From assembly GCA_021292105.1 (NCBI GenBank), contig CM037865.1:73672128-73736127 (forward strand): a stretch of DNA of 64,000 nucleotides, given 5' to 3'. The notes beneath the pieces are model-generated. The model was given only the letters and a program-made list of their open reading frames with translations, had not been told where the DNA came from and ran no database searches. A program made the position numbers and the translations under genes. Source of the DNA: Anadara kagoshimensis (lineage: Eukaryota; Mollusca; Bivalvia; Arcoida; Arcidae). Positions 88 through 38,842 of this stretch are shown one piece after another. Numbering within the stretch: position 1 is the stretch's first letter; each line of letters begins with the position of its first letter.

Positions 88-246
88 AGATCCAGTAGAA
101 TTACAGAATAAATTGGCAGATTTACAGTACCAGAACAGAAAGTTATTGGAGGATAATGGCAAATTACAACAGCAACTTGATCACCAAGAAGAAGTCATAA
201 ATTTAACCTCTACTGAAGTTATCAGCCTACAGAGAAAAATAAAAAG
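88..246 (+). CDS. Exon 1 of window (internal): coiled-coil segment
   Basis: Preceded by an acceptor (TCTGTCACAG) and followed by GTCAGA. The reading frame starts with the third base of a split codon, then DPVELQNKLADL, and continues through NRKLLEDNGKLQQQ and EVISLQRKIK. It ends with two bases (AG) of a Ser codon completed in exon 2. Leu at heptad spacing and many Glu/Lys/Gln indicate a coiled coil. The GTCAGA donor is weaker than the others. This is the piece that most resembles KASH5/LRMP-type coiled coils (L-DL...NR-L...N-KLQ pattern), but only weakly. Confidence 0.85.
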
Positions 247-818: not shown

Positions 819-987
819 TTTGCAAGAAATGGTTGATTTGAAAGAAGAGATTCAAAGAGAAAATGAAGATTTGAAATCGGCTGTTTCCAAACTTCAGGAT
901 AAAAGAAAAGATTTAGAAAATAAACTGAATCATATTGAAAGAGAAAATAATCAGTATGAAAGTAAAAACACAGAACTAGAAAAGAAG
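819..987 (+). CDS. Exon 2: coiled-coil segment
   Basis: Acceptor TATTTCAG, donor GTAACT. The first base completes Ser from exon 1, followed by 56 codons (LQEMVDLKEEIQRENEDL ... ESKNTELEKK), phase 0 at the end. Densely charged heptads with no Pro or Gly, typical of a continuous parallel coiled coil. An opposite-strand open frame over 815-1,060 is a shadow of this exon. Confidence 0.92.
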
Positions 988-1329: not shown

Positions 1330-1407
1330 GTACAAACACTAAATGGTCAACTTGAGACAGCTTCCAGTAAAGCTTTGGAATTAAGAAACCTCTTAGCAGA
1401 AACTAAA
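1330..1407 (+). CDS. Exon 3: coiled-coil segment
   Basis: Acceptor TTTTATAG, donor GTAATT, 26 codons (VQTLNGQLETASSKALE ... LLAETK), phase 0 at both ends. It continues the heptads of exon 2. Confidence 0.9.
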
Positions 1408-2409: not shown

Positions 2410-2466
2410 CACAGACTTTCACAAGTTCAGGATATTAAATCAATACAGGAAGAACAGTTATCCGAG
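2410..2466 (+). CDS. Exon 4: coiled-coil segment
   Basis: Acceptor TTATTTTAG, donor GTAAAA, 19 codons (HRLSQVQDIKSIQEEQLSE), phase 0 at both ends. A short exon kept by frame and composition. Confidence 0.85.
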
Positions 2467-3116: not shown

Positions 3117-3176
3117 AGATTTACAGAAATTGGAGATCTGAAAGAAAAAACTCAAAGTTTATCACACATTGTTGAG
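3117..3176 (+). CDS. Exon 5: coiled-coil segment
   Basis: Acceptor ATTTTTTCAG, donor GTTTGT, 20 codons (RFTEIGDLKEKTQSLSHIVE), phase 0 at both ends. The donor is non-consensus at +3 to +5 but frame continuity supports it. It is followed by a 7.6-kb intron full of repeats. Confidence 0.82.
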
Positions 3177-3230: not shown

Positions 3231-5986
3231 TTTAGCTCACCTGACCGAAGGTCATGTGAGCTTATGGCATAGCGCAGCGTGTGTATGTGCGTGTGTGCAT
3301 GTGTGCGTCGTTAACACCTATTTTCGACTTCTCCTCTGAAACTACTGGACAGTTTTTAATGAAACTTTGTCAGAAGTATATATGGGCCGGTGCAATTCAG
3401 ATTTGTTCGTGGCGTTGCTATGGCTACTATAACTAGGTCAAGGTGACCTAGGGGTGCAAAAATCTTAAAAAATCTTCTTCTCCGAAAGTACTGATTGGAG
3501 AAAAAATCTGATGTGATATTTGGCTTCTCTAGGGTCTTAAGCCTATAGTTTGTTCATTTTGTGAAATTCTGATAAAAAATAGGTTACGCGTTTTTGCGTT
3601 TAATTTGGAAAAAATCGTAAAATAGCTTCAAATTGTTATAACTTAACTATTTGACCAGATAATGACATGGGGTTTTCAGTTTTGACATCTTCTTGTTAGT
3701 ATCTTCAAAATGAGGTCAAGGTCAATTGTGAAGGTCGTGACCTAATTTTTTTTATCTCTGATTATAATTATTATCTCAAAAACTATAAACTTTTTGTATA
3801 GGCATGTATATTAGAATGTTGTAGGTATTGATACAACGATCATTTTGATGTATAGAAAAAGGTCATGGGTTCAAAGGTCAAGGTCACACATGCGAAACAA
3901 TACCGAAATGGTTAATTATCTCGAAAACTATAAACATTTTGTATAGGCATGTATATTAGAATGTTGTAGGTATTGATACAACGATCATTTTGATGTATAG
4001 AAAAAGGTCATAGGTTCAAAGGTCAAGGTCACAGATGCGAAACAATACCAAAATGGTTAATTATCTCTAAAACTATAAACTTTTTGTATAGGCATATATA
4101 TTACAATGTTGTAGGTATTGATACAACAATCATTTTGATGTATAGAAAAAGGTCATGGGTTCAAAGGTCAAGGTCACAGGTGTGAAACAATACTGAAATG
4201 GTTAATTATTTCGAAAACTATAAACTTTTTGTATAGGCATGTATATTAGAATGTTGTAGGTATTGATACAACGATCATTTTGATGTATAGAAAAAGGTCA
4301 TGGGTTCAAAGGTCAAGGTCACAGATGCGAAACAATACCAAAATGGTTAATTATCTCGAAAACTATAAACTTTTTGTATAGGCATATATATTACAATGTT
4401 GTAGGTATTGATACAACGATCATTTTGATGTATAGAAAAAGGTCATGGGTTCAAAGGTCAAGGTCACAGATATGAAACAATACCGAAATGGTTAATTATC
4501 TCGAAATCTATAAACTTTTTGTATAGGCATATATATTAGAATGTTGTAGGTATTGACACAACGGTCATTTTGATGTATAGAAAAAGGTCATGGGTTTAAA
4601 GGTCAAGGTCACAGATGTGAAACAATACCGAAATGGTTAATTATCTCGAAAACTATAAACATTTTGTATAGACATGTATATTAGAATGTTGTAGGTATTG
4701 ATACAACGATCATTTTGATGTATAGAAAAAGGTCATGGGTTCAAAGTTTAAGGTCACACATGCGAAACAATACAGAAATGGTTAATTATCTCGAAAACTA
4801 TAAACATTTTGTATAGGCATGTATATTAGAATGTTGTAGGTATTGATACAACGATCATTTTGATGTATAGAAAAAGGTCATGGGTTCAAAGGTCAAGGTC
4901 ACAGATGTGAAACAATACCGAAATGGTTAATTATCTCGAAAACTATAAACTTTTTCTATGGGCATATATATTAGAATGTTGTAGGTATTGATACAACGAT
5001 CATTTTGATGTATAGAAAAAGGTCATGGGTTCAAAGGTCAAGGTCACACATGTGAAACAATACCGAAATGGTTAATTATCTCCAAAACTATAAAGTTTTC
5101 TATAGGCATGTATATTAGAATGTTGTAGGTATTGATACAACGATCATTTTGATGTATAAAAAAAAGCTCATGGGTTGAAAGGTCAAGGTCATAGATGTGA
5201 AACAATACCAAAATGGTTAATTATCTCGAAAACTATAAACTTTTTGTATAGGCATGTATATAAGAATGTTGTAGGTATTGATACAACAATTATTTTGATG
5301 TATAGAAAAAGGTCATGGGTTCAAAGGTCAAGGTCACAGATTCGAAACAATACTGAAATGGTTAATTATCTCGAAAACTATAAACTTTTTATATAGACAT
5401 GTATATTAGAATGGTGTAGGTATTGATACAACGATCATTTTAATGTATAGAAAAAGGTCATTGGTTCAAAGGTTAAGGTCACAGATGTGAAATAATACCG
5501 AAATGATTAATTATCTCTAAAACTATAAACTTTTTGTATAGGCATGTATATTAGAATGGTGTAGGTATCAATACAACGATCATTTTGATGTATAGAAAAA
5601 GGTCATGGGTTCAAAGGTCAAGGTCACAGATGTGAAACAATACTGAAATGGTTAATTATCTCGAAAACTATAAACATTTTGTATAGGCTTATATATTAGA
5701 ATGTTGTAGGTATTGATACACTTTTCGATCACTTTGATGTATAGAAAAAGGTCATGGGTTCAAAGGTCAAGGTCACAGATGTGAAACAATACTGAAATGG
5801 TTAATTATCTTGAAAACTATTAACTTTTTGTATAGGCATGTATATTAGAATATTGTAGGTATTGATACAATGGTTATCATGATTTAAAGAAAAAGTCATT
5901 GGGGTTTAGTATTTATGTTTTCTTAAAATCTATCAGCTAGCCATTAGTTATCAGGTGAGCGTATCAGGCCCATGGGCCTCTTGTTA
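3231..5986 (+). mobile_element. Tandem-repeat-containing interspersed element, copy 1 (14 units of 145 bp)
   Basis: The 5' end TTTAGCTCACCTGACC can fold into a hairpin with the following GGTCATGTGAGCT. The 3' end has AGGTGAGCG, which mirrors the 5' start, and the small palindrome GGCCCATGGGCC before TCTTGTT. About 600 bp of unique left arm lead into direct repeats of 145 bp. Each unit contains GGTCATGGGTTCAAAGG followed by TCAAGGTCA, with anchors at 3,861, 4,006, 4,151, 4,296 and so on to 5,747. No coding capacity. The architecture matches the non-autonomous tandem-repeat MITE or pearl/Helentron-like elements described in bivalves; that class assignment is inference. It lies in intron 5. A second copy is at 13,771 and a diverged one at 37,534. 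Confidence 0.8.
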
Positions 5987-6756
5987 ATTGAAAATATTCA
6001 ATTGTTTCAAATTTTAAAAAATAAGATAAATAATAACTTCTAGGTAAAGAAATGTGAAGCTTTCCAGATTTTTTAACATCAGAATTGTATCTTATTTATT
6101 TTGCAATTCTGAAAACTGAAACGATATCATTGGGTTTTAATAACTGCACTCTATTTGCTTAGAGAATTATTGTCATACTGTCAAGTTGTAGTTGTACACA
6201 TACACATTTACCCTAGTGATGGATGGTTGAAAATATAATATTTAGTATTTGTATTCATGAGATAGAAGTATTGTTATTTCTCCAAATTTCTTCAAACAAG
6301 TAGCTTATAGTCAGTCATAAATTCATTTCCTGCTTACTTTTGCAACACTGACTCTATATAATCTACACATCATGCTTTACCTATGTCTATGGCATGTTAA
6401 TCAGAAATTTTATTTATTTTGTTTACTTTTGATGAATATATTTCTTACAGATCTTTCTGTTGCTGTTACCTGGTAACCTTATTTTCTAGTTTGCATACAT
6501 ATATTCAAGCTTACCACATAGCCTATGAATCTGCTTACCAGTACTTTGTTGCAAAAAACCAAGTTGGATTACAATTTGACATTACATGTGCCTACTAGGT
6601 TTTGGGTTATGAATTATTGTTGCTATTGTCATACTGGTCATTGTGGCTTCTGTTAACATGTTATCACTTAACTGCTCATGACAACTATACCTGTGTATGT
6701 AAATATGTTTTGTTTGACCACAAGGATTGCTGCTTTGACACATTTGTTTTGGTGAC
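5987..6756. other. Intron 5 interval, nothing recognised
   Basis: AT-rich sequence between the element and the minisatellite. A small open frame from 6,602 runs into the satellite and is not supported. Confidence 0.5.
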
Positions 6757-6784
6757 TTATTGTTCTATGCTATTGCTGCTTTTA

Positions 6785-8094
6785 ATAATTATTGTTTTTG
6801 GCTGGTAATTCATTGTCACTCTTGCTATTGGCTGGTAATTCATTGTCACTCTTGCTATTGGCTGGTAATTCATTGTCACGCTTGCTATTGGCTGGTAATT
6901 CATTGTCACTCTTGCTATTGGCTGATAATTCATTGTCACTCTTGCTATTGGCTGGTAATTCATTGTCACGCTTGCTATTGGCTGGTAATTCATTGTCACT
7001 CTTGCTATTGGCTGATAATTCATTGTCACTCTTGCTATTGGCTGGTAATTCATTGTCACTCTTGCTATTGGCTGGTAATTCATTGTCACTCTTGCTATTG
7101 GCTGGTAATTCATTGTCACGCTTGCTATTGGCTGGTAATTCATTGTCACTCTTGCTATTGGCTGATAATTCATTGTCACTCTTGCTATTGGCTGGTAATT
7201 CATTGTCACTCTTGCTATTGGCTGATAATTCTTGGTCATTGTTGCTATTGGCTGGTAATTCATTGTCACTCTTGCTATTGGCTGATAATTCATGGTCATT
7301 GTTGCTATTGGCTGGTAATTCATTGTCACTCTTGCTATTGGCTGATAATTCTTGGTCATTGTTGCTATTGGCTGATAATTCTTAATCATTGTTGCTATTG
7401 GCTGGTAATTCTTAATCATTGTTGCTATTGGCTGATAATTCTTAATCATTGTTGCTATTGGCTGATAATTCTTGGTCATTGTTGCTATTGGCTGATAATT
7501 CTTAATCATTGTTGCTATTGGCTGATAATTCTTAATCATTGTTGCTATTGGCTGATAATTCTTGGTCATTGTTGCTATTGGCTGATAATTCTTAATCATT
7601 GTTGCTATTGGCTGATAATTCTTGGTCATTGTTGCTATTGGCTGATAATACTTGGTCATTGTTGCTATTGGCTGGTAATTCATTGTCACTCTTGCTATTG
7701 GCTGATAATTCTTGGTCATTGTTGCTATTGGCTGATAATTCTTGGTCATTGTTGCTATTGGCTGATAATTCTTGGTCATTGTTGCTATTGGCTGGTAATT
7801 CATTGTCACTCTTGCTATTGGCTGATAATTCTTGGTCATTGTTGCTATTGGCTGATAATTCTTGGTCATTGTTGCTATTGGCTGGTAATTCATTGTCACT
7901 CTTCCTATTGGCTGATAATTCTTGGTCATTGTTGCTATTGGCTGATAATACTTGGTCATTGTTGCTATTGGCTGGTAATTCATTGTCACTCTTGCTATTG
8001 GCTGATAATTCTTGGTCATTGTTGCTATTGGCTGATAATTCTTGGTCATTGTTGCTATTGGCTGGTAATTCATTGTCACTCTTGCTATTGGCTA
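6785..8094. repeat. 30-bp minisatellite, homogeneous part (about 43 units)
   Basis: Period exactly 30 bp. Each unit has GCTATTGGCTGRTAATTC followed by one of three endings (ATTGTCACTCTT, TTGGTCATTGTT, TTAATCATTGTT). Endings alternate in local blocks, a sign of unequal exchange. Because 30 is a multiple of three and the unit lacks stops in several frames, long open frames appear on both strands. They are artefacts of periodicity. Every unit contains an inverted CCAAT box (CAGCCAATAG on the minus strand). Confidence 0.95.
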
Positions 8095-10510
8095 ATTCTT
8101 GTTCCTTTTACTATTGGCTGATAATTCATGGTCATTGTTGCTATTGGCTAATTCTTGTCCCTTTTGCTATTGGCTGCTAATTCATGGTCATTCTTGCTAT
8201 TGGCTGCTAATTCATGGTCATTCTTGCTATTGGCCGGTAATTCATTGTCGCTCTTGCTATTGGCTAATTCTTGTTCCTTTTTCTATTGGCTGCTAATTCA
8301 TGGTCATTCTTGCTATTATCTGATAATTTATTATCATCTGGTATTGGCTGATAATTCTTGGTCATTGTTGCTATTGGCTAATTCTTGTCCCTTTTGCTAT
8401 TGGCTGCTAATTCATGGTCATTCTTGCTATTGGCCGGTAATTCATTGTCGCTCTTGCTATTGGCTAATTCTTGTTCCTTTTTCTATTGGCTGCTAATTCA
8501 TGGTCATTCTTGCTATTGGCTGATAATTTATTGTCATCTGCGATTGGCTGCTAATTCATGGTCATTCTTGCTATTATCTGATAATTTATTGTCATCTGCG
8601 ATTGGCTGGTAATTCATGGTCATTCTTGCTATTGTCTAATTTTTGTACCTTTTTCTATTGGCTGGTAATTCATGGCCATTCTTGCTATTGGCTGGTAATT
8701 TATTGTCATCTGCTATTGGCTGGTAATTCATGGTCATTGTTGCTATTGGCCGGTAATTCATTGTCGCTCTTGCTATTGGCTAATTCTTGTTCCTTTTTCT
8801 ATTGGCTGCTAATTCATAGTCATTCTTGTTATTGGCTGATAATTTATTGTCATCTGCGATTGGCTGCTAATTCATGGTCATTCTTGCTATTGAGTGAGTG
8901 AGTGAGTAATGGTGTTTAACGTATTCTTGCTATTGGCTAATTCTTGTTCCTTTTTCTATTGGCTGCTAATTCATGGTCATTCTTGCCATTGGCTGATAAT
9001 TTATTGTCATCTGCTATTGGCTGGTAATTCATGGTCATTCTTGCTATTGGCTAATTCTTGTTCCTTTTTCTATTGGCTGATAATATTCATGGTCATTCTT
9101 GCTATTTGCTGATAATTTATTGTCATCTGCTATTGGCTGGTAATTCATGGTCATTCTTGCTAGTGGTCGGTAATTCATTGTCACTCTTGCTATTGGCTAA
9201 TTCTTGTTCCTTTTTCTATTGGCTGCTAATTCATAGTCATTCTTGCTATTGGCTGATAATTTATTGTCATCTGCGATTGGCTGCTAATTCATGGTCATTC
9301 TTGCTATTGGCTGATAATTTATTGTCATCTGCTATTAGCTGGTAATTCATGGTCATTCTTGCTATTGGCTAATTCTTGTTCCTTTTTCTATTGGCTGATA
9401 ATATTCATGGTCATTCTTGCTATTTGCTGATAATTTATTGTCATCTGCTATTGGTTGGTAATTCATGGTCATTCTTGCTATTGGCTAATTCTTGTTCCTT
9501 TTTCTATTAGCTGCTAATTCATGGTCATTCTTGCTATTGGCTGATAATTTATTGTCATCTGCTATTAGCTGCTAATTCATGGTCATTCTTGCTATTGGCT
9601 AATTCTTGTTCCTTTTTCTATTGGCTGCTAATTCATGGTCATTCTTGCTATTGGCTGATAATTTATTGTCATCTGTTATTAGCTGCTAATTCATGGTCAT
9701 TCTTGCTATTGGCTAATTCTTGTTCCTTTTTCTATTGGCTGCTAATTCATGGTCATTCTTGCTATTGACTGATAATTTATTGTCATCTGCTATTGGTTGG
9801 TAATTCATGGTCATTCTTGCTATTGGCTGGTAATTTATTGTCATCTGCTATTGGCTTGTAATTCATAGTCATTCTTGCTATTGGCTGATAATTTATTATC
9901 ATCTGCTATTGGCTGCTAATTCATGGTCATTCTTGCTATTGGCTAATTCTTGTTCCTTTTTCTATTGGCTGCTAATTCATGGTCATTCTTGCTATTGGCT
10001 GATAATTTATTGTCATCTGCTATTGGCTGATAATTTATTGTCATCTGCTATTGGCTGCTAATTCATGATTATTCTTGCTGTTGGCAAATTCTTGTTCCTT
10101 TTTCTATTGGCTGATAATATTCATGGTCATTCTTGCTATTTGCTGATAATTTATTGTCATCTGCTATTGGTTGGTAATTCATGGTCATTCTTGCTATTGG
10201 CTAATTCTTGTTCCTTTTTCTATTAGCTGCTAATTCATGGTCATTCTTGCTATTGGCTGATAATTTATTGTCATCTGCTATTGGCTGCTAATTCATGGTC
10301 ATTCTTGCTATTGGCTAATTCTTGTTCCTTTTTCTATTGGCTGCTAATTCATGGTCATTCTTGCTATTGGCTGATAATTTATTGTCATCTGCTATTGGCT
10401 GCTAATTCATGATTATTCTTGCTGTTGGCAAATTCTTGTTCCTTTTTCTATTGGCTGATAATATTCATGGTCATTCTTGCTATTGGCTGATAATTTATTG
10501 TCATTCTTGT
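8095..10510. repeat. Diverged, higher-order part of the same minisatellite
   Basis: The 30-bp unit continues but is arranged in longer composite blocks of roughly 90-150 bp. These combine CTATTGGCTAATTCTTG with TTCCTTTTTC, a GCTGCTAATTCATGG unit and a GATAATTTATTGTCATCTG unit, repeated many times to 10,510. Units are more mutated than in 6,785-8,094. The array is interrupted once at 8,892-8,922 by foreign sequence. Confidence 0.9.
8892..8922 (-). mobile_element. SINE tail fragment inside the minisatellite
   Basis: GAGTGAGTGAGTAATGG then TGTTTAACGT breaks the repeat rhythm. It is close to the reverse complement of the 3' tail of the tRNA-SINE at 30,991-31,262 (TTAAACACCATTACTCAACTCA). A short 3'-end fragment of that family is the simplest reading. 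Confidence 0.55.
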
Positions 10511-10795: not shown

Positions 10796-10860
10796 GAACT
10801 CCGTCAAGAAAAAAATAGTTTACAACTTCAGCTTTCACAAATACAGATGGAGAGTGCAAG
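10796..10860 (+). CDS. Exon 6: coiled-coil segment
   Basis: Acceptor CAATTTCAG, donor GTTTGT. 21 codons (ELRQEKNSLQLQLSQIQ ... ESA) plus AG of a codon completed in exon 7. Last heptads of the first coiled coil. Confidence 0.88.
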
Positions 10861-11565: not shown

Positions 11566-11737
11566 TTTACAATCTAAAGCAGATAATACCAGCATACATT
11601 ACAGTAGTGATAAAACAGATATAGAAGATGAACAGGATCTGGGTTCCTCTCCAAACAGAAAAGTATCAGCATTTCTGGCATGTAGTACCCCAATCAAACA
11701 GGGCAACATCTCCATATGTGCAGAACTTAAACAAATG
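11566..11737 (+). CDS. Exon 7: Ser/Asp linker (shortest form)
   Basis: Acceptor TATTCCTCAG. T completes Ser, then 57 codons from LQSKADNTSIHYSS through the acidic TDIEDEQDLG to CAELKQM, phase 0 at the ATG|GTAAGT donor. The 3' part, from GGGTTCC at 11,641 through the donor, is amplified in the array that follows, so several alternative 3' ends exist. Ends at 11,737, 11,842, 11,947 or 12,052 all stay in phase 0 with exon 8, adding 0, 35, 70 or 105 residues. Which donor is used cannot be told from sequence. Confidence 0.88.
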
Positions 11738-12792
11738 GTAAGTAGGGTTTACTCTCCTGACAGAAAAGTATCAGCATTTCTGGCATGTAGTACCCCAATC
11801 AAACAGGGCAACATCTCCATATGTGCAGAACTTAAACAAATGGTAAGTAGGGTTTACTCTCCTGACAGAAAAGTATCAGCATTTCTGGCATGTAGTACCC
11901 CAATCAAACAGGGCAACATCTCCATATGTGCAGAACTTAAACAAATGGTAAGTGGGGTTTACTCTCCTGAAAGAAAAGTATCAGCATTTCTGGCTTGTAG
12001 TACCCCTATCAAACAGGGCAACATCTCCATATGTGCAGAACTCAAACAAATGGTAAGTAGGGTTTACTCTCCTGACAGAAAAGTATCAGCATTTCTGGCT
12101 TTGATACCCCTATCAAACAGGGTAACATCTCCATATGTGCAGAACTCAAACAAATGGTAAGTAGGGTTTACTCTCCTGACAGAAAAGTATCAGCATTTCT
12201 GGCATGTAGTACCCCAATCAAACAGGGCAACATCTCCATATGTGCAGAACTTAAACAAATGGTAAGTGGGGTTTACTCTCCTGAAAGAAAAGTATCAGCA
12301 TTTCTGGCTTGAAGTACCCCTATCAAACAGGGCAACATCTCCATATGTGCAGAACTTAAACAAATGGTAAGTAGGGTTTACTCTCCTGACAGAAAAGTAT
12401 CAGCATTTTTGGCTTGTAGTACCCCAATCAAACAGGGCAACATCTCCATATGTGCAGAACTTAAACAAATGGTAAGTAGGGTTTACTCTCCTAACAGAAA
12501 AGTATCAGCATTTCTGGCATGTAGTACCCCTATCAAACAGGGCAACATCTCCATATGTGCAGAACTTAAACAAATGGTAAGTAGGGTTTACTCTCCTGAC
12601 AGAAAAGTATCAGCATTTCTGGCTTTGATACCCCTATCAAACAGGGTAACATCTCCATATGTGCAGAACTCAAACAAATGGTAAGTAGGGTTTACTCTCC
12701 TGACAGAAATGTATCAGCATTTCTGGCATGTAGTACCCCTATCAAACAGGGCAACATCTCCATATGTGCAGAACTCAAACAAATGGTAAGTT
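11641..12792 (+). repeat. 105-bp tandem array: exon 7 end plus its splice donor, 11 copies
   Basis: GTAAGT donors follow ATG at 11,738, 11,843, 11,948, 12,053, 12,157, 12,262, 12,367, 12,472, 12,577, 12,681 and 12,786. Eight periods are 105 bp and two are 104 bp. Each unit is the last ~98 bases of exon 7 plus the first bases of the intron. In frame it reads as a 35-residue repeat (VSRVYSPDRKVSAFLACS, then TPIKQGNISICAELKQM). The 1-bp deletion in the unit ending at 12,156 shifts the frame, so the open frame stops at 12,158-12,160. The unit ending at 12,366 carries a TGA. Each unit also has a CCTGACAG acceptor-like string 26 bases after each donor, too close to define an intron. Units are nearly identical, so the expansion is recent. 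Confidence 0.93.
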
Positions 12793-13014: not shown

Positions 13015-13197
13015 ATAGAGAGTGAGAAGTATATGCCTTTTCCTTTAAGTACAAAAGAGTTTCATGATGAATTGTCCTTTGATATAACACCACTTTGTGA
13101 TGATGATGACGACGGTGACAGTAGTGATCAGCAGGACGGGGATCAGAACTCATCTGTATCAGTTAAAGATGAATTAACACTGGAAATATCAAAATTT
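13015..13197 (+). CDS. Exon 8: acidic linker
   Basis: Acceptor ACACTTTACAG, donor GTAAGT. 61 codons, phase 0 at both ends. It starts IESEKYMPFPLS, passes a run of seven acidic residues (CDDDDDGD...) and ends DELTLEISKF. The Asp run and Ser/Gln composition mark a flexible acidic linker between the two coiled coils. Confidence 0.92.
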
Positions 13198-13770: not shown

Positions 13771-16291
13771 TAGCTCACCTGACCGAAGGTCATGTGAGCT
13801 TATGGCATAGTGCAGCGTGTGTATGTGCGTGTGTGCGTGTGTGCGTGCGTGTGTGTGTGCGTGCGTGCGTCGTTAACACCTATTTTCGACTTCTCCTCTG
13901 AAACTACTGGACAGTTTTTAATGAAACTTTGTCAGAAGTATATATGGGCCGGTGCAATTCAGATTTGTTCGTGGCGTTGTCATGGCTACCATAACTAGGT
14001 CAAGGTGACCTAGGGGTGCAAAAATCTTAAAAAATCTTCTTCTCCAAAAGTACTGATTGGAGAAAAAAACTGATGTGATATTTGGCTTCTCTAGGGTCTT
14101 AAGCCTATAGTTTGTTCATTTTGTAAAATTTGGATAAAAAATAGGTTACGCATTTTTGCGTTTAATTTTGAAAAAATCGTAAAATAGCTTCAAATTGTTA
14201 TAACTTGACTATTTGACCAGATAATGACATGGGGTTTGCGGTTTTGACATCTTCTTGTTAGTATCTTCAAAATGAGGTCAAGGTCAATTGTGAAGGTCGT
14301 GACCTAATTTTTTACCTCTGATTCTAATTATTATCTCGAAAACTATAAACTTTTTGTATAGTCATGTATATTAGAATGTTGTAGGTATTGATACAACGAT
14401 CATTTTGATGTATAGAAAAAGGTCATGGGTTCAAAGGTCAAGGTCACAGATGCGAAACAATACTGAAATTTTTAATTATCTTGAAAACTATAAACTTTTT
14501 GTATAGGCATGTATATTAGAATGTTGTAGGTATTGATACAACAATCATTTTGATGTATAGAAAAAGGTCATGGGTTCAAAGGTCAAGGTAACAGATGCAA
14601 AACAATACTGAAATGGTTAATTATCTTGAAAACTATAAACTTTTTGTATAGGCATGTATATTAGAATATTGTAGGTATTGATACAACGATCATTTTGATG
14701 TTTAGAAAAAGGTCATGGGTTCAAAGGTCAAGGTCACAGATGGGAAACAATACCGAAATTTTTAATTATCTCGAAAACTATAAACTTTTTGTATAGGCAG
14801 GTATATTAGAATGTTGTAGGTATTGATACAACAATCATTTTGATGTATAGAAAAAGGTCATGGGTTCAAAGGTCAAGGTAACAGATGCGAAACAATACCG
14901 AAAGTTTTAATTATCTTGAAAACTATAAACTATTTGTATAGGCATGTATATTAGAATGTTGTAGGTATTGATACAACAATCATTTTGATGTATAGAAAAA
15001 GGTCATGGGTTCAAAGGTCAAGGTCACAGATGCGAAACAATACCGAAATTTTTAATTATCTTGAAAACTATAAACTTTTTGTATAGGCAGGTATATTAGA
15101 ATGTTGTAGGTATTGATACAACAATCATTTTGATGTATAGAAAAAGGTCATGGGTTCAAAGGTCAAGGTCACAGATGCGAAACAATACCGAAATTTTTAA
15201 TTATCTTGAAAACTATAAACTTTTTTTATAGGCATGTATACTAGAATGTTGTAGGTATTGATACAACGGTTATCATGATGTAAAAAAAGTTGTTGGGGTT
15301 TAGTATTTACAGTTGACTCTCGTTATCTCGAACTCGACGGGGAAATGCAAAAAGTTCGACTTATCCGGAGTTCGAGATAACAGATGTTAAAAACGACAAC
15401 AAAAGGGAAGTAACTCGTACACGCCTACCGGAAGTCGCTTTCGGTTTTATCTTGTCAAACTGTATATTGCCGGTTTCTCCTATATCGTATGTATTCAAAC
15501 ATGATATATAAAAACTGCATTATTTATTATTTGCATTTATGATTGAGAATGTACCGGTAGTATATAAAAAATCGGGAGATTATCTGTTACTTGTTATTAG
15601 CCGACAAATAGTGGAGTCCGCTTTGGTCTCCATACCAGTTTCGCTTTGTGTACTTTAATCATCCCAAGCTTCCGGTTGTATTGAGTAATGTTCACATCAC
15701 ACGTTTTCGGAAGCCATGTTCAGCTTGGCAGTAATTATAACACCTGCTTATCCCCATGATGGTTTAATTGCTTATGCAAGGGATAATAATTAAGGGCTTA
15801 AGGAAATTGGGAGGTCAGTGCAATGTTGTAATTTTAAAATCAACACGAGACCGACAGTCAAATATTTTATTTGTGTCGGAATGTGTTTTTTCTACCAAAT
15901 AATCTGTAGGCGCTGACAAATTTGATTTCTCAAAATTTTTTGTTCGAGTAACAAATTAATTTTCCTAAATTTTTTGTTCGAGTCAACAAATTTAATTTCC
16001 TAAATTTTTTGTTCGAGTTAACGAGTGTAATTTTCCTAAGATTTTCATTCAAGGGGACGAAAATATTGTTCGACATATCCGATAATTTGAAATATCCGAG
16101 TTCGAGATAACCGGAGTGATTTTGGTTTAATAAAGAACAACTCTGTTCGGACTTTTTAAAAAAGTTCGAGATATCCGGTAGTTCGAGATATCCGAGTTCG
16201 GGATAACGAGATTCAACTGTATGTTTTCTTTAAATCTATCAGCTAGCCATTAGTTATCAGGTGAGCGTATCAGGCCCATGGGCCTCTTGTT
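13771..16291 (+). mobile_element. Tandem-repeat-containing element, copy 2 (6 units), interrupted by a MITE
   Basis: Nearly identical left arm and right end to the copy at 3,231 (TAGCTCACCTGACC ... GGGCCTCTTGTT), with a GT/GC-rich stretch at 13,815-13,870. It has only six 145-bp units (anchors 14,421, 14,566, 14,711, 14,856, 15,001, 15,146) against 14 in copy 1. The right arm is split by a 910-bp insertion at 15,310-16,219. Non-coding. Confidence 0.85.
15310..16219. mobile_element. Non-autonomous TA-flanked DNA transposon (pogo/Tc1-mariner type MITE)
   Basis: Ends CAGTTGACTCTCGTTATC and GATAACGAGATTCAACTG form a terminal inverted repeat of about 27 bp with about two mismatches. TA sits directly on both sides (15,308-15,309 and 16,220-16,221). 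Copy 1 of the host element reads ATTTATGTTTT at the same place, which is the empty site with one TA. Many internal TTCGAGATAAC-type repeats, no transposase frame. The superfamily is inferred from TA duplication and CAG termini. Confidence 0.85.
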
Positions 16292-16433: not shown

Positions 16434-16618
16434 ACAGAAAAATACAGACAAAAACAAGCAGAAATCATGGATGAAGTTGACAAGTTCCTGAAAGTACCTG
16501 GAACACAGTTAGCAAAAGATGTATCTAATCAGCTTCAAGTCAGCCTTAGACTCAAAATGGAAGAAATGTCTCAGCGAGTAACAACATTAGCCACAGCAAA
16601 AGATATGGCTGATAAAAA
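16434..16618 (+). CDS. Exon 9: start of coiled coil 2
   Basis: Acceptor AAATTGTAG, donor GTAATA. 61 codons plus AA of a Lys codon completed in exon 10. It reads TEKYRQKQAEIMDEVDKF, LKVPGTQLAKDVSNQLQ and LRLKMEEMSQRVTTLA. Helical and charged, with one Pro-Gly break near residue 22 of the exon. Confidence 0.92.
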
Positions 16619-17179
16619 GTAATATGATTGTTTATGTCTCTTTTATTTCTCTGAATTTTTAACACCCTGTTTCGTTTCTTAAATATATTCCGTTTTTGGT
16701 CTGGGAATTTGTTTTTACACTTTAACAACCTATACCATTACAAAACGGTTGGTTTGAAAGAGCAATCTTCTCTGTTTTCACCATGTGTTCAAGTCAGTTT
16801 AACTATCAATAATATCTTGTACAAATACAGATCAATTATACTTGTACAAAATATTACAAATGTGAGAGAAAACATTATGCAAAGTTAAACCTATTTTTTT
16901 GTGTAAACTTCATCATTTTCAGCTTGTGAAAAGTTGGTAACCTTCAAAAACATAATGATTTTAAACATTTAAACAATTTTGGATCATGAACAGAAAAACC
17001 TAGAATTTTGTAACTCTATATAGACCGTCATTGCATGATTTATACTACTGTTTTAGTAACGTCATTTTTTTATTTACAGACACCTTATTTTGAACTTTGA
17101 TACTTAATTTAAATAAGTAGATATTGTTTTTGTTTTGTCATTTGCTTGTTAAACCTTCCTATCTCTTTTCTGTTTTCAG

Positions 17180-17217
17180 GATGGATTTTCTGTCTAGGAA
17201 AAACAAGCGATTGAAAG
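17180..17217 (+). CDS. Exon 10: small coiled-coil exon
   Basis: Acceptor TGTTTTCAG, donor GTGAGT. G completes Lys, then MDFLSRKNKRLK and one base of a Glu codon. 38 bp; both splice sites are strong and phases fit exons 9 and 11. Confidence 0.9.
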
Positions 17218-18065
17218 GTGAGTTCAGATTATCCTCTTGTCCATTAAGCTTGTCTGTAAAATATACAGAAGAGCTTAAGCCATTTCATATGGTATCTAAA
17301 CATAATGATTAAATATGAGATTAATGTTTTCATAAACAAACTTTTTTGTAAAAGAGCTCAACAAAATGCAGTTCTGATGCAGAAATTCATACTTTTATCA
17401 TGGACAATATTAGTTTCAGTCACAACTCTTAACCCCATTGATTTCCTGTCCATTGCCAAAACAAAAATGACATCAACTGTCTGATAAAATTAAGAATACA
17501 CACTGCCTGTAGAAGGAATGATATATTAAAATTTGTTATTGCAATAGAACTTTTACAATGAATGGTATAATCAATCATCCATGATCTAGTCACACAGTGT
17601 AGCTGCAGTGAGCAACAGTTCTTATTACAATTCTTATATTATAGTCAATTCTTAAGTGTCAACTGAACCAAGATTCTGGAATTAATTTACTTCATTAAAA
17701 AGAATTATATAAACAATTGTCAGCAATTTGGCAATGAAAACTATTAATTTTACCTATGAACATCTTCCATAAATGATTTGTTACAATAAAAAATTGAAGG
17801 TGAGATACAATTGTGGCCTGCTTTAATATGTTTTGGTAGGTTGAGTTTTATTTTCTTGAGCTTTCTAGTTTTTACCATGCCCTACCATCAAGAATAAATA
17901 GTAAATGTATCTTATTCTTGTGTTCTTTTACAAATTTATCAATAGATGAAATGTTTTAATGCTATGGAGTTATGGACCACAAAGATGGTCTAAAACACAT
18001 ACACACACCCGACACACACATGCAATCCTTTATTTTAAAGTCATCTTTTCTGTTCTGTTTTCCAG

Positions 18066-18220
18066 AGGAGAATCAAAAGTTGAAAAAGATAACAGAAGAA
18101 TCTAAAATCATGCTAGCAGATTCAGATCGGGAGATGGAGAATGCTATTGATAATAGACTTTTAATACTAAAGGATAGGTTAGATCAGGAACGTTCACACA
18201 GACAAAAACTTCAGAAAGAG
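18066..18220 (+). CDS. Exon 11: coiled-coil segment
   Basis: Acceptor TGTTTTCCAG, donor GTATGA. AG completes Glu, then 51 codons (ENQKLKKITEESKIML ... DREMENAIDNRLLILKD ... RQKLQKE), phase 0 at the end. Regular heptads. Confidence 0.93.
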
Positions 18221-37533: not shown

Positions 37534-38842
37534 AGCTCACCTGAGCCAAAGGCTCAGATGTGCAATTGCCATCTATCTTTGTCCGATGTGCTTCATGTAT
37601 AAACTTTTCACATTTTTTATCAATTCCTCCAAAACTACAGAGCCAAATTGGATGATATTTGACAGTAATGGTCAAGTAAGGGGTTTTCAGATTTGCACAT
37701 ATGCAAGGATTATGTCCCCTTGGGGCCCCATAAAGGGGAAATTTGTGAAAATCTTTAAAAATCATCTGCTCTGAACCTACAAGAGATATAACTTAGATAT
37801 TTCATGTAAAACACTATGGGCACCTAGTTTTAGATTTGCACATATTGTAGCTTTAGGGGCCAAAATGAGATAATGGCAAGGTACTTGAGGGGGAAATTGC
37901 AAAATTAATGTATTTGTCAATATATTTGAAAACTATAAGCTTTTTGTATGGGCATCATCATCATGTGTATTGGAATACTGTAGGCATTTGCACAACGGTC
38001 ATTTTGATATATGAATAGAGGTCATAAGTTCAAAGGTCAAGGTCATAGATGTAAACGAATACTGAAATGGTTAATTATCTCAAAAACTTTGAACTCTTTG
38101 TGTAGGCATGTATATTAGAATATTGTAGGCATTTGCCTTACGGTCATTTCCATATATGAACGAAGGTATAGGTTCAAAGGTCAAGGTCATAGATGCAAAC
38201 AAATACTGAAATGGTGAATTATCTCAAAAATGATAAACTTTCTCTATAGGCATGTATATCAGAATGTTATAGGCATTTACACAATGTTCATTTTGATATA
38301 TGAATGTAGGTCATAGGTCTAATGGTCAAGGTTATAGATGCAAATGAATACTGAAATGATTAATTGTCTTAAAAACTATAAACTTTTTGTATAGGCATAT
38401 ATGTTAAAATATTGTAGGTATTGGCCTAACGATCATTTTGATATATGAATGAAGGACATCAAGGTCACTGATGCAAACAAATACTGACATGGTTAATTAT
38501 CTCAAAAACTATAAACTTTTTGTATAGGCTTCTAAATTGTAGGTATTGACCTAATATTCATTGCGATATTTAGATTAAGGTCATGGGTTCAAATTTTTCT
38601 TTACCTTTTTAGTTGTTTATAAACAATATATTGTAGCTAGATTTCAGATATATTATATGTAGCACTCTTATGACTAGTTATGTTATAATAAATTTGCAAA
38701 AAATCCTTACATATAATTGGCCCTTACTGTTGAAAATTTATTTGGACATTCTCTTTAATTAATGTCAATGACCATTGAACCTCTGCATGAGATATGTACT
38801 CAGCTGCATGTGAGCATTAAGGCTCATGGACCTCTTGTTTAA
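37534..38842 (+). mobile_element. Diverged tandem-repeat-containing element, copy 3
   Basis: Starts TTAGCTCACCTGAGCC with a GGCTCA hairpin partner. It carries about five decayed units with TTCAAAGGTCAAGGTCATAG and ACTATAAACTTTTTGTATAG like copies 1 and 2, and ends GGCTCATGGACCTCTTGTT. Much older than the other two by divergence. Open frames on both strands at 37,532-37,774 are not supported. Confidence 0.72.

Follow-up and report, generated by a model that had tools for sequence, protein, structure and literature searches.

The window, by which we mean the whole 64-kb stretch of DNA analysed here, carries on its forward strand nine exons of a gene that continue the reading frame of two exons lying upstream of it (-10006 to -9815 and -6774 to -6653, counted from the first base of the window), and the joined exons encode a protein of 481 residues. 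An EF-hand is found at the N terminus (PF14658, EF-hand_9; E = 4.3e-11, 43.5 bits against a cut-off of 37) and residues 110-294 match the KASH_CCD coiled coil (PF14662; E = 2.5e-20, 73.7 bits against a cut-off of 43.3). Because both domains are present, the gene looks like that of the dynein adaptor KASH5, of which LRMP is a relative with the same EF-hand plus KASH_CCD build. Exon 7, which begins at residue 302, is the first exon past the coiled coil, and it is the 3′ end of this exon, together with its splice donor, that is repeated in tandem. The features are listed below.

88..246, + strand: window exon 1, KASH_CCD coiled coil (in-frame gene model)
819..987, + strand: exon 2, coiled coil (in-frame gene model)
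1330..1407, + strand: exon 3, coiled coil (in-frame gene model)
2410..2466, + strand: exon 4, coiled coil (in-frame gene model)
3117..3176, + strand: exon 5, coiled coil (in-frame gene model)
10796..10860, + strand: exon 6, coiled coil (in-frame gene model)
11566..11737, + strand: exon 7 to donor 1, 172 nt, with GNISICAELKQM (in-frame gene model; acceptor score 4.3, donor score 5.7)
11641..11737, + strand: unit 1, the original exon end, 97 nt (alignment of 11 units)
11738..12785, + strand: units 2-11, head to tail, each with a GTAAGT donor at its end (TRF, unit alignment)
11735, 11840, 11945, 12050, 12154, 12259, 12364, 12469, 12574, 12678, 12783, + strand: starts of ATGGTAAGT (exact string match)
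11738..11743, + strand: donor 1, predicted to be the one mainly used (by analogy with the parallel arrays, and from exon definition)
12053..12058, + strand: donor 4, last donor in frame with exon 8 (+105 residues; translation of every donor choice)
12158..12160, + strand: TAA within the GTAAGT of donor 5, met after the 1-bp deletion of unit 5
12310..12312, + strand: TGA in unit 7
12786..12791, + strand: donor 11
13015..13197, + strand: exon 8, phase 0 at both ends (in-frame gene model)
16434..16618, + strand: exon 9, last exon placed in frame (gene model, weak splice-site scores)

According to PMC9242646 and PMC10071310, KASH5 is an adaptor that activates dynein and has, past its coiled coil, a putative Spindly motif; the potential motif occupies residues 371-376 and the coiled-coil region extends to residue 349. 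The window gene resembles KASH5 (CCDC155) in the order of its parts, an EF-hand followed by the KASH_CCD coiled coil and, past it, a Spindly-like motif. It differs in that the motif has I for L and that no transmembrane segment and KASH tail were found by a simple screen for a hydrophobic stretch with a short PP tail, made on the + strand after 34386, exon joins being uncertain past 16618. Exons 9 and 10 (16618 to 18066) are out of frame with each other; the model may lack a short exon or a different boundary at this place. A PDB search with the coiled coil returned keratins only (E 0.006-0.009) and one with the EF-hand part nothing useful. A whole-genome search with PF14662 was discarded: it gave two sub-threshold matches on contig C2, matched two control prokaryotes as well and missed the exon-split gene of the window.

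Structure and reading frames of the donor array

The array extends from 11647 to 12791 with a period of 105 and 10.9 copies at 95% matches (TRF), and ATGGTAAGT has exactly 11 exact matches on the + strand of the window, every one of them inside the array. An earlier note on this DNA had described 11 GTAAGT donors at a 105-bp period, and both TRF and the exact string count agree with it: the eleven donors (ATG/GTAAGT) are identical and follow one another at a spacing of 104-105 bp from 11738 to 12786. Units 5 and 10 measure 104 bp and the others 105 bp, except for the 97-nt unit 1. Units 2-11 start with GTAAGT, followed by the joint and then by exon sequence again, the joint connecting a point some 7 nt inside the intron to the exon sequence GGGTTCC. 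At the place where the other units carry GGGTTTACTCTCCTGACAG or close variants, unit 1 carries GGGTTCCTCTCCAAACAG. This comparison upholds the proposal that the duplication started inside the exon and, since the duplicated unit began there, that the acceptor-like CCTGACAG is exon-derived. Downstream of donor 11 the sequence is intron unlike the unit joints, and because a different intron sequence comes after it, unit 11 probably keeps the original exon-intron edge.

Thirteen of the 105 columns vary among units 2-11. Units 2, 3 and 6 are identical to each other, as are units 5 and 10 (alignment of 11 units), which suggests that blocks of units were copied together. Homogenised inner units of this kind are expected of tandem-repeat turnover; an escape of the edge units from homogenisation is weakly seen, unit 1 having no joint and unit 11 one private change, with private changes also in the inner units 7-9. 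An excess conservation of the 9-bp donor across units was rejected, nine chosen columns being all invariant with P = 0.29.

Whole-genome searching (1.115 Gb, 36 contigs) placed the array at this single position and revealed no paralogues of exons 7 and 8, the protein matching the array and exon 8 alone. Arrays are otherwise common in the window, since tandem arrays make up 17.6% of it (seven TRF rows summed). They include 145-bp satellites of like sequence at 3770-5899, 14330-15267 and 37962-38529, two of the three in introns of the KASH5-like gene, and a 30-bp array (6798-10509) that is open from stop to stop on both strands (6739-8121, +, 460 residues; 6757-8091, -, 444 residues) and encodes repetitive WLVIHCHSCY.

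When every donor choice was translated, donors 1-4 were found to join exon 8 at phase 0 with 0, 35, 70 or 105 residues added, exactly as had been claimed. Each choice among donors 5-11 yields a premature stop: donor 5 creates a TGA where it meets exon 8, and with donors 6-11 the TAA at 12158-12160 is read. The earlier note had attributed the loss of the later donors to two 1-bp deletions and a TGA. The later donors are indeed non-productive, but the TAA at 12158-12160 stops reading before the TGA of unit 7 is reached, and the two deletions are probably one event since units 5 and 10 are identical. The joint GTAAGTAG, the form taken by eight of the ten joints, is open in one frame (V S R) and contains TAA or TAG in the other two (by eye), so that donors of that form act as stop traps.

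Splice sites were scored with a home-made weight matrix. All 11 donors reach 5.7, compared with -2.5 to 3.8 for the donors of the eight other modelled exons, and only 26 of the 3722 GT sites on the + strand of the window score at least 5.7, 11 of these 26 being those of the array. Depending on the donor, exon 7 would measure between 172 nt (with donor 1) and 1220 nt (with donor 11), and intron 7 correspondingly between 1277 nt and 229 nt. The acceptor-like sites of units 3-11 score 3.3-4.1 in seven of nine cases, against 4.3 for the acceptor of exon 7 itself, and -0.6 in units 4 and 7. From a donor to the nearest unit acceptor there are 26 nt, and if one unit were retained after donor 1 as a separate exon of 79 nt, it would be translated as KSISISGM and then a stop (by eye).

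Exon-end arrays elsewhere in the genome

Each strand was searched for three GGTAAGT at gaps of 83-113 bases, with the reversed string as a control; this located 3577 + 4388 places, against 1162 + 1200 in the control. At gaps of 75-105 the counts were 422 + 409 versus 22 + 60 for CAGGTAAGT, 586 + 895 versus 265 + 149 for ATGGTAAGT, 103 + 488 versus 176 + 31 for AAGGTAAGT and 106 + 305 versus 24 + 148 for GAGGTAAGT. Among the matches listed (about 100 per search, not all classified), most looked like arrays without an exon. Parallels were chosen among these listed matches as coding-looking, a non-random sample that comprises at least nine arrays with the window included. The genome thus holds at least eight other exon-end arrays with repeated donors, three of them with protein-family or structure-sequence matches; L055-L059 are taken as exon ends because a frame stays open in them from an acceptor-like site to the donors.

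L047, 3963-4728 in G000:C1:1611000-1619999, - strand: DEP gene (E = 4.6e-7, 30.1 bits, just below the cut-off of 32.7), 8 donors, 91 bp
L049, 3487-4383 in G000:C1:13352000-13359999, - strand: biotin-protein ligase (E = 1.5e-7, above the cut-off), 8 donors, 113 bp
L052, 838-1350 in G000:C2:52144700-52146900, + strand: cytoplasmic dynein 1 heavy chain, CAG/GTAAGT, 5 donors and a decayed sixth, 102 bp, in frame
L055: 3 donors, 98 bp, weak Ras-family match (E = 0.0089, below the cut-off)
L056: 5 donors and a decayed sixth, 47 bp, without a protein match
L057: 10 GTAAG donors (some GTAAGG or GTAAGA), 47 bp, without a protein match
L058: at least 7 donors, 44 bp, running beyond the stretch examined, weak Las1 match (E = 0.034, below the cut-off)
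L059: at least 9 donors, 48 bp, running beyond the stretch examined, cadherin-like by eye, without a protein match

The first six inter-donor units of the biotin-protein ligase array are identical, for which reason it was probably amplified recently. In the DEP gene, TAAGTAG is common to exon and donor, a possible microhomology at the joint. Three candidates were rejected as parallels: L036 (G000:C1:7585175, +) consists of ankyrin-like, near-identical 99-bp coding repeats in which GGTAAGT is read as GKS (by eye), L053 is an array of 44-bp units whose examined stretch contains no exon, and L048 is a 71/101-bp satellite (TRF alone). L024, L050, L017/L051 (donor positions only) and the short-period arrays L025-L035 stand outside the nine-array count. 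At G000:C2:63662840-63663105 (+) we observed units of about 45 bp of the form CAG/GTAAGTGAAGC...TTCTTCGTCACAG/GTAAGT, each a possible tiny intron without an intervening exon, recalling recursive splice sites.

Periods divisible by three occur in three of the nine arrays, the window included, which is the chance value. In all six out-of-frame arrays a stop is met before donor 2 when donor 1 is read past; such genes can be functional only if splicing picks the first of their many similar donors. The dynein array allows this to be checked against a protein of known structure. Its exon matches residues 1685-1746 in solved structures of cytoplasmic dynein 1 heavy chain 1, whose chains have 4646 residues (E around 1e-19, 4.5e-20 for the best match), and, weakly, Pfam DHC_N2 (E = 0.0077). 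When donor 1 is connected to the following exon, the resulting 128 residues all align to 1684-1811 of the solved chain (E = 3.6e-45), with two single-residue gaps elsewhere and none at the joint. Donor 1 is therefore the old exon end, and the copies past it should lie in the expected intron.

Codon differences between units were counted in exon cores of hand-set length, with the joint excluded; units 5 and 10, which are frameshifted, and the sixth dynein unit, whose donor has decayed, were left aside. Over the nine arrays 23 of 38 variants are synonymous against 24% expected (P = 1.2e-6, or 8e-8 to 1.2e-5 under other transition weights), variants within one array being non-independent. The proportion is 16 of 25 in the arrays that are untranslatable past donor 1 (P = 2e-5; 2.5e-6 to 1.1e-4) and 7 of 13 in the in-frame arrays (P = 0.017). 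It varies from array to array (biotin ligase 3/3, L058 3/6, L057 2/4, L059 1/4); L056 has one synonymous and one other variant with six units, one and none with five. The window array contributes four synonymous differences out of six to this count. Taken alone, five of its seven variable core columns are synonymous (P = 0.007-0.019), and five of ten over the whole unit (P = 0.05-0.11). We did not accept this bias as proving the translation of more than one unit, since it is equally strong where translation past donor 1 cannot occur. It fits a descent of the units from a working exon, through turnover at position 1 or through exchange between silently differing alleles.

Choice among the repeated donors

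We consider it likely that the array is a minisatellite of the mirage type known from amphioxus, in which donor 1 is mainly used and the other ten units leave with the intron, having no function of their own. The array would have arisen by tandem duplication of a boundary segment made up of the last 97 nt of exon 7 and about 7 nt of intron 7, and would have been amplified by unequal exchange or slippage, blocks of units being copied jointly. The spliceosome would then act mainly on donor 1, producing an exon of ordinary size (172 nt) and removing the ten other units as intron. Donors 2-4 might be used at a low level, adding 35-105 residues, and the early-stop mRNAs from donors 5-11 would probably be lost to nonsense-mediated decay. 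As a whole, the array would be a by-product of a repeat-rich genome.

The prediction that donor 1 is the main donor is made because of the parallel arrays and of exon definition. According to PMC9225289, the upstream of two identical CAG/guaagu donors was the only one used, under exon definition, in each of five minigenes whose flanking introns measured 365 nt. In the human genome as a whole, the same source gives a preference for the upstream donor in only about 60% of cases when the donors are near-equal, and for the downstream donor in about 60% among all alternative donors, unmatched for strength. The 229-nt intron that donor 11 would leave is perhaps within the size range of intron definition; this would give the last donor the advantage and argues against donor 1.

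The earlier note had suggested that copy number and donor choice could generate length variation, or else a productive/non-productive switch. In a generator of protein length, donors 1-4 would all really be used and copy number would vary between animals, so that one to four copies of a 35-residue unit follow the coiled coil. Donors 1-4 are open and in frame, which distinguishes the window from six of the eight parallels, and all donors are of equal strength; moreover, the title of Turri et al. 1995 speaks of multiple splice donor sites in the human IFI6 (6-16) minisatellite. We nevertheless regard such a generator as unlikely, and the data do not bear it out. In-frame periods occur among the nine arrays at the chance rate, and donor 1 is the sole productive choice in the six out-of-frame ones. 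Minigenes with identical donors choose the upstream one (PMC9225289), and splicing, as judged by RT-PCR, is reported as undisturbed in amphioxus (PMC3087553).

The unit also contains, at residue 351 in exon 7, the sequence ICAEL, which approaches the Spindly consensus L-theta-x-E-theta given in PMC9481740 and PMC7615804 except that I replaces L. This counts for the generation of length variants, and against it counts the absence of any match to the strict consensus from the 481-residue protein. ICAEL is one of three relaxed matches in that protein, and shuffling yields a relaxed match in 6% of cases for the first 60 residues of exons 7-8 and in 10% for 118 residues. It is a weak hint that each unit may carry a dynactin-binding motif. 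That the choice among donors 1-4, together with inherited or somatic changes in unit number, sets the number of Spindly-like dynactin-binding motifs in a KASH5-like adaptor appears very improbable to us; if true, it would amount to splice- and allele-tuned recruitment of motors by such a dynein adaptor.

Alternatively, the array could tune output as a productive/non-productive switch in which the use of a downstream donor or of a unit acceptor brings a premature stop and destruction of the mRNA. All of donors 5-11 do lead to stops, most unit acceptors (7/9 in units 3-11) come close to that of exon 7, a 79-nt unit exon would end in a stop and donor 11 would leave an intron of 229 nt. Yet a single deletion event, copied once, accounts for the loss of frame, and unrelated genes show parallel arrays of like structure, so that we hold a switch to be improbable.

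There is little chance that the array is misassembled or has a different true copy number. It comes from a single assembly, and repeats can be misassembled; on the other hand, the 1.1-kb array contains informative variants (the 13 variable columns), is flanked on both sides by a coherent gene and is present once in the 36-contig assembly, and copy numbers differ among the eight similar arrays. Least credible is an intron gain in progress, in which units would become exons or introns by splicing from a unit's donor to the acceptor-like CCTGACAG of a unit further downstream: most units do have both sites and such repeats have been proposed as an intron source (PMC3087553, PMC4974935 and PMC2812944), but neighbouring sites are just 26 nt apart, and the frameshift caused by including a unit as an exon leads to a stop (by eye).

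Many exons of this genome have their donor in 3-11 or more copies, which makes the genome a natural experiment on spliceosomal choice between identical sites. In the out-of-frame arrays the first donor is predicted to win, and the in-frame arrays provide a test of a tolerated leak to later donors. The nine arrays also suggest how minisatellites arise at exon boundaries and how they retain the mark of coding selection without being translated.

Relation to known boundary-spanning repeats

Tandem repeats over exon-intron boundaries have been described as mirages in the amphioxus Adh3 and globin genes (BflGb6, BflGb9), where their length differs between haplotypes and RT-PCR suggests undisturbed splicing (PMC3087553). 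Those repeats and the window array have in common that they span the boundary, that many repeats contain splice signals and that the units are homogenised, and the 105-bp unit falls within the 10-160 bp of amphioxus mirages. In BflGb6 the acceptor side is repeated and in BflGb9 there is one duplicate of the 3′ edge of the exon, whereas here the donor side is present 11 times; at least nine donor-side arrays, moreover, occur in one genome. Length instability and normal splicing are reported for amphioxus, while the window array is known from the sequence of one assembly. Donor arrays as a class in a mollusc genome are not reported in the literature searched, which barely targeted bivalves and covered few subscription papers. 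The array shows several traits of a mirage: tandem repeats over an exon-intron boundary, splice signals (the 11 GTAAGT donors) within the repeats, and homogenised inner units.

Turri, Cuin and Porter (1995) reportedly described a minisatellite in the human interferon-induced gene 6-16 (IFI6) as a provider of multiple splice donor sites. Units that supply splice donors are common to both minisatellites. The IFI6 unit is about 12 bp long, against 105 bp here. The multiple donors of IFI6 are named in the title of that report; donor use in the window array is a prediction from sequence.

Tandem duplication has also been linked to intron gain, in the potato RdRp gene (PMC4974935), and human internal tandem repeats have been proposed as an intron source (PMC2812944). 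There, too, a duplication crossing a boundary copies the splice signals. The difference is that a new intron is not predicted here, a spliced intron between units being unlikely because the nearest unit acceptor lies 26 nt from a donor. Boundary-spanning repeats are already known from the amphioxus mirages, and the window array probably joins the minisatellites of the mirage type.
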